A stretch of DNA of 29,659 bases from a virus. Under the pieces are notes generated by a model. That model was not told the origin of the DNA. It did not search any database and saw only the letters and a list, made by a program, of their open reading frames with translations. Shown here in pieces: positions 1 through 9,673 of the stretch; the stretch's first letter is position 1; every line of letters begins with the position of its first letter. The position numbers and the translations under genes are program-made. The stretch covers positions 1-29,659 of IMG/VR virus record IMGVR_UViG_3300042114_000054; one strand, written 5' to 3'.

Positions 1-181
1 TGTCTCAAAAACCTCCAACGCATTGTATTTTTGGAATTCTGAGGCACAAGAAAACGCACTAGAAAAAAGAGGACACTCGTTCGCATGTCGAATAATAAGT
101 AAACAAGTGAATGAAATCGGTATAGACACTAACGACCCCGCTAGTATTTTTCTTAAACAACACGAGATGGATAATGACTAA
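1..181 (+). CDS. C-terminal end of an unknown protein (partial, runs off left edge)
   Basis: The frame whose first full codon is at position 2 stays open from the window edge to a TAA at 179-181, giving about 59 residues that end in FLKQHEMDND. The start lies outside the window. The stop overlaps the first codons of the methyltransferase gene that starts at 174, an 8-base overlap typical of translationally coupled phage genes, so the two are probably one operon. I do not recognise the sequence: it is hydrophilic, with a single Cys and no membrane segment. The coding call rests on the open frame and the coupled overlap only. Confidence 0.6.
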   Translation, partial: VSKTSNALYFWNSEAQENALEKRGHSFACRIISKQVNEIGIDTNDPASIFLKQHEMDND

Positions 182-791
182 TGACACACTGATACGAAAC
201 AAGACTAACGTCTACAAAACGGGAGAAGTATTCACGCCCAGTCATCTTGTCGATAAGATGAATGACTTAGTGCCTTGTGAGGCATGGGAAGATAAGACAT
301 ATGTTTTTCTTGAACCCACGTGCGGAAATGGTCAGTTCCTTGTTCGTATTTTTAATAAGAGAATAAACCACGGGTTATCAGTTGAGGAGGCGCTGAACAC
401 ACTAATCGGATTAGATATATCGACAGACAATATCTCCGATAGTCGTTCTCGATTAGTCGAACTAGCCTGTACCATCGCGTTAGAAAAAGGTATAGAGAAA
501 GGATCGATCCCTTGGTTTAACTTAATCGAACGTGTTCTAGCCATCGTGCATAATAACATATTCAAGGTAGACTCATTAGTAGACATGACAGCCTATCAAA
601 AAGGGGAAGGTATTTTGGCAAACAAGAAGTTTGTCTTTGAGGACCCCACTGGTAACAACAACGTCTTGCCCCTTAGACATCGTATTAAAAAGATCTCCGT
701 CATCCACAAAGCCCTCAAGGCACTTGAGGGGGATAAAAATATACCAGCACGTAATCACCCGTTATGCCAAGCGATATTTGATATCAATTGA
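174..791 (+). CDS. Split Eco57I-like adenine-specific DNA methyltransferase, N-terminal SAM-binding half
   Basis: This 205-residue protein carries the first half of an N6-adenine methyltransferase. TGEVFTP (residues 16-22) is the usual N-terminal motif of Eco57I-type enzymes, FLEPTCGNGQFL (45-56) is motif I that binds S-adenosylmethionine, and LIGLDIS (77-83) resembles motif II. NNIFKVDSL (127-135) may be the motif III region. The protein ends at residue 205 without the catalytic NPPF/Y motif IV. That motif is found on the opposite strand in two genes ending at 835 and 1841. Inference: the halves assemble into an active enzyme that methylates phage DNA against host restriction. The start has a weak ribosome site, but it overlaps the upstream stop, which suggests coupling. 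An inactive relic is the alternative, although the motifs look intact. Confidence 0.85.
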   Translation: MTNDTLIRNKTNVYKTGEVFTPSHLVDKMNDLVPCEAWEDKTYVFLEPTCGNGQFLVRIFNKRINHGLSVEEALNTLIGLDISTDNISDSRSRLVELACTIALEKGIEKGSIPWFNLIERVLAIVHNNIFKVDSLVDMTAYQKGEGILANKKFVFEDPTGNNNVLPLRHRIKKISVIHKALKALEGDKNIPARNHPLCQAIFDIN

Positions 792-806
792 TAATATTCA
801 TCAATA

Positions 807-836
807 GATGGTGTGTGTCATTCGACACACACCATC
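807..836. terminator. Hairpin between convergent methyltransferase halves
   Basis: A perfect 13-bp stem (GATGGTGTGTGTC, loop ATTC, then its complement) lies 15 bases after the stop of the rightward gene. It overlaps the stop codon (835-837) of the leftward gene. Neither side has a clear T-run, so if it stops transcription it is not a textbook intrinsic terminator. Its position between converging genes favours a two-way terminator or an mRNA 3'-end stabiliser. Confidence 0.6.
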
Positions 837-1797
837 ATAGAATCTTCGATTCGATAATGGCAATTTCTTGTAAAGATAAGTCGTATTTCGCATACAGATC
901 TTTATCAGTCCAAGGGACAGAATAATCAATAACGTCAGGAACCCATGCAAAACAACCTCTAGGGATGTATTGAGATATGACACGTAATCGTAACATATAA
1001 CGAAAAAACTTAGTCTTCATGTAAGAGACAAAGTTTATAGCCTCTATTTCAGTGTCGAATGAATTAACGACAAGAAACGTCTCCGAACAGATTTCCCCCG
1101 GCGGTGACATGACATGGGATGTCTTACTAAGTAATCTGGTAGGCTTGTATAAATCCATCCATTTTTCTGGTATTGCAAAGGGGATTATCACCTTCCATTT
1201 GTTTATGTCACCACGCAGATTCTTAACAATAGACCCATCCACAAACTTCTTTCCCATGCTATGCCTGAACATACATACGACCCCATTTTGTGCCGTGGGT
1301 GTTAAGTTGCTGATCCCATAAGGCTTCCGCGTTGATACCACAACGTCTAAGAACCTTGACGTGTTATTCTTAACCTTCCCAAGGATGGGGAGGGCGTCAT
1401 GTTCACGAACAACAATATCAAAATCGTTTAATCGACGTTGAATACCATTAAACGTGCACTCCCCGTTATATTTCTTATCCCAAAGAAAATAACATACGCC
1501 CCCGACGATAAAAGCAGACGGGAACGTCTTAGCACCTGATATACCGTCTTCAACTATTCGTAAACGACGGTCATTCACCATTCTTGTTCTGAAAGAGGTC
1601 AGTACCTTTCCACCTTGTTGTAACCATCTACTAGGTATCACCATCGATAGATAATCTGGCATCATGTTATCGATAATACCCTCGATGAACTTACCATAGA
1701 CACTAACCCCTACCTGAACCCTCTTATCTCCCATCCCTTTCGTCCCTCCCGTGTTATAAGGTGGGTTCCCCAATACGACTAGTTTATTAAACCTCAT
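835..1797 (-). CDS. Split adenine methyltransferase, catalytic/target-recognition half, distal copy
   Basis: This 320-residue protein starts MRFNKLVVLGNPPYNTGG, so the catalytic NPPY (motif IV) sits at residues 11-14. It continues with the Eco57I-family C-terminal part: MVIPSRWLQQGGK, NDRRLRIVED, GGVCYFLWDKKY, a variable middle, FDTEIEAINFVSYMKTKFFR, and the end segment VPWTDKDLYAKYDLSLQEI. It lacks motif I, which is encoded separately at 174-791. The frame extends upstream to 1935, but that part is the neighbour's 3' end read on. The start at 1797 is fixed by AGGAGG five bases before the ATG. It is a close paralogue of the gene at 1841-2794 and lies 43 bases downstream of it. The two differ mainly in the likely target-recognition segments. 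Confidence 0.85.
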   Translation of the reverse strand: MRFNKLVVLGNPPYNTGGTKGMGDKRVQVGVSVYGKFIEGIIDNMMPDYLSMVIPSRWLQQGGKVLTSFRTRMVNDRRLRIVEDGISGAKTFPSAFIVGGVCYFLWDKKYNGECTFNGIQRRLNDFDIVVREHDALPILGKVKNNTSRFLDVVVSTRKPYGISNLTPTAQNGVVCMFRHSMGKKFVDGSIVKNLRGDINKWKVIIPFAIPEKWMDLYKPTRLLSKTSHVMSPPGEICSETFLVVNSFDTEIEAINFVSYMKTKFFRYMLRLRVISQYIPRGCFAWVPDVIDYSVPWTDKDLYAKYDLSLQEIAIIESKIL

Positions 1798-1840
1798 ATT
1801 TCCTCCTATTCTTGTATGTGATCCATTATTGTAGGTATTA

Positions 1841-2794
1841 TCATATAATCTTCGATTCGATAATAGCGATTTCTTGTAAAGATAAGTCGTATTTCGCATA
1901 CAATTCTTTATCAGTCCAAGGGACAGAATAATCAATAACGTCCGGAACCCATGTGTAACAACCTCGGGGGCTGCGCTGCGATATAACGCGTAATCGTAAC
2001 ATATAACGAAAAAACTTAGTCTTCATGTAAGAAATAAAGTTTATAGCCTCTATTTCAGTGTCAAATGAATTAGCAACAAGGAACGTCCATGAACATACCT
2101 CACCTGGTGGTATTGTAAAAAGGGAGCCCTCGGTGAATATTCTAGCAGGCTTACTAAAATCTAAGGCCAAACCTGATAGCGCAAAGGGGACCACTACTTT
2201 CCACTTGTTTATGTCACCACGCAAGTTTTTGACAATAGACCCGTCCACAAACTTCTTTCCTAGGGTATGCTTAAACATACATACAACCCCATTTTGTGCC
2301 GTGGGGGTAGGACTAGTAACCCCATATGGGACAGGAACAGACACGGTAGTGTTGAGAAATACTGACGTGTTATTCTTAATCTTCCTCAAGATAGGGATAT
2401 CATCATGCTCACGGACAACAATATCAAACTCATTTAATCGACGTTGAATACCGTTAAACGTGCAATCCCCGTCGTATTTCTTATCCCAAAGAAAATAACA
2501 TATGCCCCCTATGATAAGGGCAGACGGGAACGTTCTAGCCCCTGACATATCATCTTCAATTATTCGTAAACGACGGTCATTCACCATTCTTGTTCTGAAG
2601 GAGGTCAGTACCTTTCCACCTCGTTGTAACCATCTACTAGGTATCACCATCGATAGATAATCTGGCATCATGCTATCGATAATACACTCGATGAACTTAC
2701 CATAAATACTAACCCCTATTTCACCTAGTTTACCTCCCCGTCCTCCTGTATTAAAAGGTGGGTTTCCCAAAACGACCAGTTTATTAAACCTCAT
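1841..2794 (-). CDS. Split adenine methyltransferase, catalytic/target-recognition half, proximal copy
   Basis: This 317-residue protein has NPPF at residues 11-14 (GNPPFNTGG) and the same Eco57I-type C-terminal segments as its neighbour, ending in LSLQEIAIIESKII. An AGGAGG ribosome site lies six bases before the ATG. It would be transcribed first, from a promoter-like site near 2843-2872, with the second copy behind it. Compared with the copy at 835-1797, the first 170 or so residues and the last 75 are almost the same. The segments around GVTSPTPTAQN and SGLALDFSKPARIFTEG have changed heavily. By family knowledge the C-terminal part chooses the DNA target, so the copies may give two specificities with one SAM-binding partner. 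That pairing is inference. Confidence 0.85.
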   Translation of the reverse strand: MRFNKLVVLGNPPFNTGGRGGKLGEIGVSIYGKFIECIIDSMMPDYLSMVIPSRWLQRGGKVLTSFRTRMVNDRRLRIIEDDMSGARTFPSALIIGGICYFLWDKKYDGDCTFNGIQRRLNEFDIVVREHDDIPILRKIKNNTSVFLNTTVSVPVPYGVTSPTPTAQNGVVCMFKHTLGKKFVDGSIVKNLRGDINKWKVVVPFALSGLALDFSKPARIFTEGSLFTIPPGEVCSWTFLVANSFDTEIEAINFISYMKTKFFRYMLRLRVISQRSPRGCYTWVPDVIDYSVPWTDKELYAKYDLSLQEIAIIESKII

Positions 2795-5233: not shown

Positions 5234-7231
5234 ATGGAAGAGAATATTTACAGCGTACCAAACTTCTATGTCCAATCAGACGACAACGATGCTGAGGTTG
5301 TAGATGATTTTGGTTTGAATGGAGAACAACGTGCTGACCTCGTTAAACGCGCCAAAAAGGCCGCTAGCGAGGCACATGGGTATTGGGATGCTAAGTACGA
5401 TGAGATGGAAAATGACTGGAAGATGTATGCCGCGGACCAGTGGAGCGAGGAGGCCAAACTGGCACGACGCGGCCGGCCCCGTCTGACCCTTAATCAGTTA
5501 CCTAAGTTCGTTAAACGTATTATCGCACAAACACGAAAAGAACCCCCTGCAATTAAACTGAGCCCCCGAGAATCTAGTGACAGGTTGAAGGCTGATATCG
5601 CGACTGGACTAGTACGTTATATTGAGGACGCGTCAGGCGCTAAATATGTCTATTCTCATGCACTAGAGTGCGCGGTAATCGGTGGCCTGGGCTGGATTAA
5701 GGGTTCATTCGACCCTATACAACGCAAGATACTAATCAAGAAGGTGAAAGACCCATTCTATTACATGGCGGATCCCGATTCCGAGGAAATTGATGGTAGC
5801 GACGCTAAGTATTTTATAGCACATATAAAGAAGAAAGAAGGTAAGAAGTCTCTAGATAGTTATGAATACTGGTACAAAGACGAGGGCAAGGTTTTCTGGG
5901 TAATTATCAATGAGGGTAAAATAGAGGACTACGGTGAGTTCCCGGGAGCTATCATCCCTATCTTTCCAGTGTTTGGGGAGGAGATTACCTATAGGGACGA
6001 ACGCATACTTAAAGGTATCATCCGGGACCTTACAGACGCCCAACGCACGTACAATTATGTCAAATCACAAGAAGTGGAAATAGTCGCACTTACCCCCAAG
6101 GCCCCCGTCATCGCAGAAGAAGGCACACTGGAGGGGTACGAGGGTGACTGGAAACGTGCATCTAAAACCCCAGTCGATATTCTTTATTACAAGAAAACGA
6201 ACCTTGCGTCTGAACCAGCTCAGCCTCCTACCTTTGCTAGTACCCAACCAAACATAACCTGGTCCCCTCAAATAACCCAAGGGGCCATGTCCGACCTTCG
6301 TGAGATATCTGGAATATATGACACGAACCTCGGCGCGGACGCCGGCGGACAGATGAGCGGTAAGGCCATTATCGCTAAACAGGAGGCGGGTGATTCAGGT
6401 CAGTTAACATACACAGAACACTTACAGGCAACAATACAACAGGTGGGCCGCTGGGTACTAGGCATGATAGCCCCCGTCCTGGGTGAGGAAACGTCTATCC
6501 GCATATTAGGTGAGGATGGTAAACAATCTATCGTAGACACTTCTACCGCCCAAATAGACCCAGTAACAGGACAACCTGTCATGCTAGACTTGAATTTTGC
6601 TGAGATGGACATATCTGTTAGTTCAGGCCCTGCTTATTCTACGCGCAGGGAGGCCTCCAGTAGGGCTATCCAAGAAATTATGACGGCCCTCCCTAATTCT
6701 GCTCAGTTCATTGCTGATATCGCGGTGAGAAACCTAGACCTTCCCGGCGCCGAGGAGGCTGCTAACCGTTTGTATAAGATGTTACCGCCTCAATTAATCG
6801 AGTCTCAAGACAACGGTTTGATACCTCGCGAAACGGCTGACCAGATTATGAATCAGTCTGAGGCAACAATACAACAACAACAACAACTTATTCAGCGTAT
6901 GCAGACAGAAATACAATCATTGCATATCGAATTACAGAACCAAACACAGGCTAAACTAGCTGGTGAACAGATGAAGTCTCAGACCTCCATCGCCGTCGCA
7001 CAGATTAAAGAGGCAGGGGCAAACGAGCGCAAAATGGCTGACGTCGCCGCAAGAACGGCGTCTGATAATAAGAAAATAGCGATGAGTGTGTTAGAGGCAC
7101 AACATACCCCGCCCCCTGTGCCAGACGCGCCCGAACAGGTAACGTTGAACAACACAACCGTTCACCCTATTCAGGCCCCTATTCAGGCCCCTATCCAGCC
7201 AATTATGTATAGACAAGGCGACGGTTTTTAA
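5234..7231 (+). CDS. Portal protein (P22 gp1-like)
   Basis: This 665-residue protein forms the dodecameric ring through which DNA enters and leaves the capsid. P22-type features are the N-terminal AHGYWDAKYDEMENDWKMYA helix region, RRGRPRLTLNQLPKFVKRI, and the central core (FPVFGEEITYRDERILKGII, then RDLTDAQRTYNYVKSQEVE). It also has the segment DLREISGIYDTNLGA, followed by GQMSGKAIIAKQEAGDSG. Residues from about 545 on are Gln-rich and helical (QQQQQLIQRMQTEIQSLHIE), which fits the C-terminal barrel of P22 gp1. The end holds a short repeat PIQAPIQAPIQP. P22 gp1 is 725 residues, so this is slightly short. The ribosome site is AGGA eight bases before the ATG. Confidence 0.95.
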   Translation: MEENIYSVPNFYVQSDDNDAEVVDDFGLNGEQRADLVKRAKKAASEAHGYWDAKYDEMENDWKMYAADQWSEEAKLARRGRPRLTLNQLPKFVKRIIAQTRKEPPAIKLSPRESSDRLKADIATGLVRYIEDASGAKYVYSHALECAVIGGLGWIKGSFDPIQRKILIKKVKDPFYYMADPDSEEIDGSDAKYFIAHIKKKEGKKSLDSYEYWYKDEGKVFWVIINEGKIEDYGEFPGAIIPIFPVFGEEITYRDERILKGIIRDLTDAQRTYNYVKSQEVEIVALTPKAPVIAEEGTLEGYEGDWKRASKTPVDILYYKKTNLASEPAQPPTFASTQPNITWSPQITQGAMSDLREISGIYDTNLGADAGGQMSGKAIIAKQEAGDSGQLTYTEHLQATIQQVGRWVLGMIAPVLGEETSIRILGEDGKQSIVDTSTAQIDPVTGQPVMLDLNFAEMDISVSSGPAYSTRREASSRAIQEIMTALPNSAQFIADIAVRNLDLPGAEEAANRLYKMLPPQLIESQDNGLIPRETADQIMNQSEATIQQQQQLIQRMQTEIQSLHIELQNQTQAKLAGEQMKSQTSIAVAQIKEAGANERKMADVAARTASDNKKIAMSVLEAQHTPPPVPDAPEQVTLNNTTVHPIQAPIQAPIQPIMYRQGDGF

Positions 7232-8422: not shown

Positions 8423-9673
8423 ATGGCTAATAATATCGCTAAAATCACAGGTATGGTCGTACGTGAAACCGCGCGCGGTTATCACAACACTCGTCTTTTT
8501 TCTGGATTAATTTCCCGGAAATACAATGATGAGTTCGCACAAGAAGGCGCAAAGGTAGGCGAAACTATTTTCGTTCGCAAACCTGCCAAGTTCCGTATTC
8601 GTTCTGGCGCAAATCAAGAGATTCAAGACGTCGTTGAGACAAAGATTCCAGTGACTCTCCCTGCTCAGGTAGGCGCTGATTTCTCCTTCTCGACCCGTGA
8701 ACTGACCCTGGATATCGATAGCGGCAAGAGAGAATATTCAGACCGCACCATCGTTCCTGCTGGTTCTGCTATCGCCTCTTCCAAGGACGCTGAAGGGTTA
8801 CAACTAGCTGCACTGAACGCTGGTTTCACCGTCGTCACTCCTGCTACCCCTAGCCTCGCTGATTTCACCGCTGCTAAGGCGTTCTTGAACAAGATGTTGG
8901 CTCCAAAGGGTATGGATAGCCGTTTCGCAATTGTTGGTTCTGACGTTGAATCCGCAGTCGCAAACGAGGTGAAAGTGTTGTACAACAACGCTAAGGAAAT
9001 CACCACGGCTATTCGTGAGAACGAATTGCACTCTATTGGTGGTTTGACATGGGCGTCCAGTGACCTAGTTTACGTTCGCACGAACGGCGCTGGTGGACTG
9101 GCTGTTACGCTCGGCGCTGTAATCGTTCCCGATTATGCCAATGAAACTCAGACTATCACCATTGCTGGCGCTGGCGCTCCTTCCGTCGCCGTAGGTGATA
9201 CCCTTGTTTTCAACACACACTTCGTGAACCCGGAAACCAAACAAGTCTATGTGAACGCTATGCAACGCAAGGTTCTTGCTAAGCCATCTGCGTCTACCGT
9301 GACCGTTTATTCTGTGCGTCCTGTTATCGCCGCCCCTGCTACCCCTGCTGCTCGTGCACAGGCTGCTGCTGCAAATTGTGAGGCCCTCCCTGCTAATGGT
9401 AGCACAATTAGCGTTCTTGGCGTGGCTGGAACGAAGTATCTTGTGTCTGTTGTTCTCCAGAAAGAAGCCATGTGTCTCACCTCGGTGGACCTTGTTATTC
9501 CTGAGGATGGCGTCGCAATGAAGGACAAGATTTTGATCGACGGTATGTCTATCAGGTTCCTCAAAGCCTACTCAATTGGGGATGATACCCTTCCTTCCCG
9601 CCTGGACACACTGAGCGCGTTTACTGCACTCTATCCAGAATGGATTGTTGCTGTAGAAACCCCTCTTGCATAA
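8423..9673 (+). CDS. Major capsid protein (P22 gp5-like coat)
   Basis: This 416-residue protein builds the icosahedral shell. The N-terminal part (ARGYHNTRLFSGLISRKYND, then VGETIFVRKPAKFRI) and the strand TKIPVTLPAQVGADFSFSTR are typical of P22 gp5 coat proteins, and the length is close to the 430 residues of gp5. An insertion-domain-like part is likely around residues 225-345. Codon use looks smoother than in the neighbouring genes, with many GCT, GTT and CGT codons, as expected for the most abundant phage protein (judged by eye). GAGAG lies upstream of the ATG. A strong terminator follows the stop, so coat mRNA can end there. Confidence 0.93.
   Translation: MANNIAKITGMVVRETARGYHNTRLFSGLISRKYNDEFAQEGAKVGETIFVRKPAKFRIRSGANQEIQDVVETKIPVTLPAQVGADFSFSTRELTLDIDSGKREYSDRTIVPAGSAIASSKDAEGLQLAALNAGFTVVTPATPSLADFTAAKAFLNKMLAPKGMDSRFAIVGSDVESAVANEVKVLYNNAKEITTAIRENELHSIGGLTWASSDLVYVRTNGAGGLAVTLGAVIVPDYANETQTITIAGAGAPSVAVGDTLVFNTHFVNPETKQVYVNAMQRKVLAKPSASTVTVYSVRPVIAAPATPAARAQAAAANCEALPANGSTISVLGVAGTKYLVSVVLQKEAMCLTSVDLVIPEDGVAMKDKILIDGMSIRFLKAYSIGDDTLPSRLDTLSAFTALYPEWIVAVETPLA

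Follow-up and report, generated by a model that had tools for sequence, protein, structure and literature searches.

Organization of the methyltransferase locus

The DNA analysed here, referred to as the window, is a 29,659-base IMG/VR virus record with three methyltransferase (MTase) genes at its left end. The genes for coat, portal and terminase point to a P22-like podovirus, and the record may be a fragment. The first gene, N (174-791, plus strand), encodes a SAM-binding half of 205 aa with strands β1-3, as assigned by PHROG, tblastn and alignment to the N genes of relatives. It contains motif X (GEVFTP) and motif I (EPTCGNGQF, aa 47-55, positions 312-338 of the plus strand), and it has no motif IV. 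The other two genes, A (835-1797) and B (1841-2794), lie on the minus strand and encode catalytic halves of 320 and 317 aa, respectively, each with a target-recognition part (TRD). On the same strand, motif IV is NPPY in A (1756-1767) and NPPF in B (2753-2764). The initial annotation had placed motif I in one gene and motif IV in two genes facing it, and this was correct. No polypeptide of the window carries all the motifs together, which is the usual γ-class form.

N and the A/B pair are convergent, with fewer than 50 bp between the ends of N and A. A and B each have their own strong ribosome-binding site, and a minus-strand transcript would read B and then A. A perfect 13-bp hairpin (807-836) lies between the N stop and the A stop; the region 786-850 has an MFE of -26.2 kcal/mol with a z of -5.2. 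The hairpin has no T-run, but it could act as a two-way terminator and would suit two transcripts that meet. Convergent promoters had been proposed to set the ratio of the two sides. This was not borne out, because promoter-like sites at the locus were no commoner than in shuffled sequence. An invertible cassette in the window was rejected, as no long inverted repeat joins N to A or B.

A longer reading frame of A starting from TTG at 1935 was considered and rejected in favour of the ATG at 1797. The residues MRFNKL, which come after AGGAGGAAAT, line up with the beginning of B, which makes the longer frame unnecessary.

N and the two C-halves

The matches of N in PHROG reached 5.9e-14 and included a phage family labelled "DNA methyltransferase" (3.5e-11), and tblastn matched it to a gut phage at 1e-16. 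The N genes of relatives could be aligned to it, although it sits on a long branch of the N tree and its position there is not resolved. A search of the window with the N profile found no other gene with motif I. A and B begin at motif IV and do not have the variant N-like domain (FLDPxxKSG) carried by C genes of relatives, so N is the only candidate found for the SAM site.

Both C-halves matched Pfam Eco57I (PF07669) above its curated cut-off of 25.3 bits (A, 43 bits, 6.5e-11; B, 34.5 bits, 2.8e-8). Their matches begin only at profile positions 69-77 of 171, near motif IV. A tblastn search with B gave a match at 5e-52 that spans the entire query. The two genes are tandem paralogs, repeating with a period of 1006 bp; their amino-acid identity is 78%, and 171 of 951 aligned nucleotides differ. 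The only contig recovered by a terminase and capsid search for close relatives of the phage is identical across the 6,926 bases compared and stops inside B. Thus the tandem A-B layout is without a second independent assembly.

The differences between A and B are not spread evenly. At the nucleotide level, codons 44-83, within the catalytic core, are 97% identical, and identity falls to 55% at codons 144-163 and 58-60% at codons 204-243, within the TRD, so that the two halves differ mainly in their target-recognition part, as had been proposed. The diverged segments are codons 144-168 and 204-236 of A (1294-1368 and 1090-1188, minus strand), and comparison of A with B placed the matching segments of B at codons 141-165 and 201-233 (2300-2374 and 2096-2194, minus strand). 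Divergence is also seen in a third stretch (aa 18-30), which follows motif IV and forms a loop of low confidence in the AlphaFold2 model of B. Because synonymous change is likewise uneven (P = 0.0055), the pattern is a mosaic, from either exchange of the TRD or homogenised flanks. NPPY or NPPF and most conserved positions are retained in both copies, and the dN/dS of 0.24 indicates that both are under purifying selection. The TRD-centred divergence therefore suggests unlike targets and not decay.

Complementarity of the two halves

No relative of the C-halves was found in the PDB by sequence; CamA, BseCI and TaqI were reached only by fold. B alone was modelled by AlphaFold2 with a pLDDT of 89 and a pTM of 0.88. 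The model matched CamA at residues 156-577 (Z 14.7), BseCI at 124-576 (Z 14.5) and TaqI at 96-412 (Z about 12), and all these matches begin at the motif IV strand and run onward. We also modelled a natural fusion from a related locus (L037; pLDDT 92, pTM 0.90), in which residues 1-191 align to N genes and residues 192-519 to C genes. This chain matched CamA at 13-577 (Z 24.7), BseCI at 9-576 and TaqI at 21-411, that is, almost the whole enzymes. Since B covers part of each enzyme and the fusion covers nearly all of it, the N and C parts are complementary. The fold matches and the alignment of the fusion place the cut between β3 and β4. The strand order of the MTase sheet is known, and by this order the N and C chains would meet at the centre of the sheet. 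When N and C are aligned to the fusion and read as one, the motifs come in the order X-I-(II-III)-IV, with a TRD at the C-terminal end. The motifs, the fusions in relatives and the fold matches all agree with the earlier proposal that the locus holds one common half and two C-halves of one MTase.

Split and fused relatives

Related loci were taken from IMG/VR, phage records and GTDB genomes, sorted by N and C profiles and freed of duplicates; the counts are of sampled loci within the fetched flanks, not of all genomes. At 100 unique loci, a canonical N part and a C part were found as two distinct genes. These are on the same strand in 100/100, and the median gap between their ORFs is -32 bp. 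A single N-C chain was found at four unique loci. In three of them (L037, L100 and L207) a canonical motif I half is joined directly to C, and the fourth, L010 from Fusobacterium phage FNU4, is a fused chain with a variant first half. In the N tree, split L036 is the sister of fused L037 (99/94), and split L108, whose N adjoins a C gene without an extension, is the sister of fused L100 (100/79); the tree was built on few columns and the L108/L100 pair is not fully supported. These split and fused sister lineages indicate that splitting or joining happened more than once.

The initial annotation had treated the separation of the parts as abnormal. In this subfamily it is the rule, with 100 split loci against four fused ones. 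The statement that there is no fused version was right for the window and wrong for the family. A frameshift of a fused gene in this isolate only had been named as the reading to exclude, and a broken or frameshifted single gene was indeed rejected. The split form is present at 100 loci, N and the C-halves have their own starts on opposite strands, and A and B differ as described above. The split layout itself recurs in relatives as separate N and C genes, but convergence of N with two complete C-halves was seen only in the window among the sampled loci.

An N-terminal extension of about 200 aa was found in 98 unique C genes, and its motif I could be read in 91. A Lys replaces the first Gly of this motif in all 91 (FLDPxxKSGVF), whereas the Gly is kept in 155 of the 155 N genes in which it could be read. 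Several of the Lys-type C genes (L003, L004, L006, L144, L148 and others) adjoin N genes with the normal Gly.

A short stand-alone N gene of 145-180 aa is conserved in phages (L063, L066, L072, L079 and L014). In 17 of 18 phage records with a stand-alone N, the profiles detected no Eco57I-type partner.

A proposed shared SAM-binding subunit with two catalytic halves

The reading that we prefer, as judged from sequences and models, is that N probably pairs with A or with B in an active enzyme, giving two enzymes with different targets. N and one C-half would associate as a heterodimer to make a single γ-class N6-adenine DNA methyltransferase. N would supply β1-3 and motifs X, I, II and III, which form the SAM site, and the C-half would supply β4-7, the NPPY/NPPF adenine pocket and the target-reading TRD. 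The same N would be used by both A and B, and N+A and N+B would methylate two targets in the phage DNA. As the TRDs of A and B differ, these targets are most likely unlike. Methylation of two targets may then shield the phage DNA from host restriction. Against this pairing, N and the C-halves of the window are on opposite strands, unlike the 100 codirectional relatives. In addition, the N of the window is long-branched, and several stand-alone phage N genes are partnerless in their records.

The same split enzyme could exist with A and B having the same or overlapping targets, the duplication reflecting dose or drift and only one copy being of importance. The strong similarity of A and B and their near-identical catalytic stretches fit this reading, and the columns at which they differ are also the looser ones across the family. 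Because the same positions vary family-wide, part of the A-B divergence may be tolerance. This weakens, but does not remove, the case for different targets. It is just in the two TRD segments that identity drops to 55-60%, and purifying selection acts on both copies; on this ground we regard a shared target as rather unlikely.

N might instead act alone or with some other partner, A and B being remnants or having partners elsewhere. Good phage matches of N are stand-alone genes, most without a detected Eco57I-type partner, and N is on the strand opposite to A and B. Yet A and B retain their motifs under purifying selection, the ends of N and A nearly touch, and N and C parts are adjacent or fused across the family, all of which makes unpaired genes improbable. 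A joint N2AB complex, whose two TRDs would read a two-part target by analogy with Type I HsdS, could account for two TRD-divergent halves side by side on one likely transcript with a single N, but the nearest solved folds (CamA, BseCI and TaqI) are single-TRD enzymes and we consider it very unlikely.

More broadly, we tentatively suggest, at somewhat less than even confidence, a shared SAM-binding subunit that serves a small array of exchangeable catalytic-plus-TRD halves, with TRDs diversified by recombination, two targets here and perhaps more in relatives. The exchanged unit would then include part of the active site. Specificity would change by swapping half of a Rossmann methyltransferase fold in place of a TRD or S subunit alone, and such a locus would offer a natural ready-made two-part system for m6A marking.

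Comparison with known systems

The nearest systems are other two-gene MTases of this subfamily from phages and bacteria, such as L003, L004, L006 (phage NatCom_35866), L144 and L148. Like the window, they have N (EPACGxG) and C (NPPY and TRD) in separate genes, which are homologous to those of the window, and their C part matches PADLOC PDLC03375 (MTase_II, 348 positions). Unlike the window, they are codirectional and adjacent, with one C gene that carries the extra Lys-motif-I N-like domain. The window thus has the separate canonical-motif-I N and NPPY-plus-TRD C of this subfamily and lacks its codirectional neighbours and FLDPxxKSG domain. What sets it apart is one N beside two C-halves, the lack of a pseudo-N domain, and convergence around a perfect hairpin. 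The fused L037, L100 and L207 have the same parts in the same N-then-C order but in one chain with one TRD. CamA, M.BseCI and M.TaqI, which are γ-class adenine MTases, are alike in fold, both as whole enzymes and in the C part, but they are single chains with sequence identity of only 10-20%.

The Lak megaphages (L230, L226 and L227) provide the nearest parallel, with a stand-alone N that has two or three C-like genes nearby, on mixed strands. Their C parts are strongly diverged, some being truncated or having NAPY, the layout is divergent, and TAG is read as glutamine.

Type I HsdM/HsdS systems and multispecific phage C5-MTases combine a common core with exchangeable specificity, and in both the target-recognition parts are swapped and the active site is not. 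In the window, the exchanged half also bears NPPY and half of the sheet. An HsdM subunit has both motifs I and IV and works with a separate S subunit, whereas the window divides these motifs between genes and carries the TRD on the motif IV chain. For multispecific phage C5-MTases, Trautner 1996 is cited in PMC12707154. A natural two-chain C5-MTase, M.AquI, is cited in PMC5944983. Like the proposed enzyme, it is one MTase made of two polypeptides; it differs in being a cytosine-C5 enzyme, and no duplicated half is noted for it.

Searches of the open-access literature, covered mostly as titles and abstracts, turned up no paper describing a natural adenine MTase divided between motifs III and IV. 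The two-gene adenine MTases, with their 100 unique loci and a second gene with a conserved altered motif I, are apparently a large and little-described family.

Other arrangements among the relatives

L144 (7968-12792) and L148 (7965-12842) are bacterial three-gene operons in which N and an extended C are accompanied by a third gene. Its product (about 865 aa) has a weak Type III helicase match, and these operons are likely restriction-modification systems. In L057 (6839-8755), a catalytic gene with motif I and NPPY (280 aa) is followed by two TRD-only genes, the second preceded by a long GA dinucleotide tract; phase-variable TRD switching is possible there. L046 (7018-14180) has three C modules, of which one is plus-strand and two are minus-strand. 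At the NPPY starts there is an inverted repeat of 33 nt with 97% complementarity (7166-7198 and 9188-9220), and the modules could form a repeat-flanked invertible cassette. In the Aeromonas phages Aeh1 and 65 (L012, 2431-3681; L013, 2113-3303), the halves are fused and permuted, with NPPY and the TRD first and motif I last, and both chains are annotated as hypothetical proteins.
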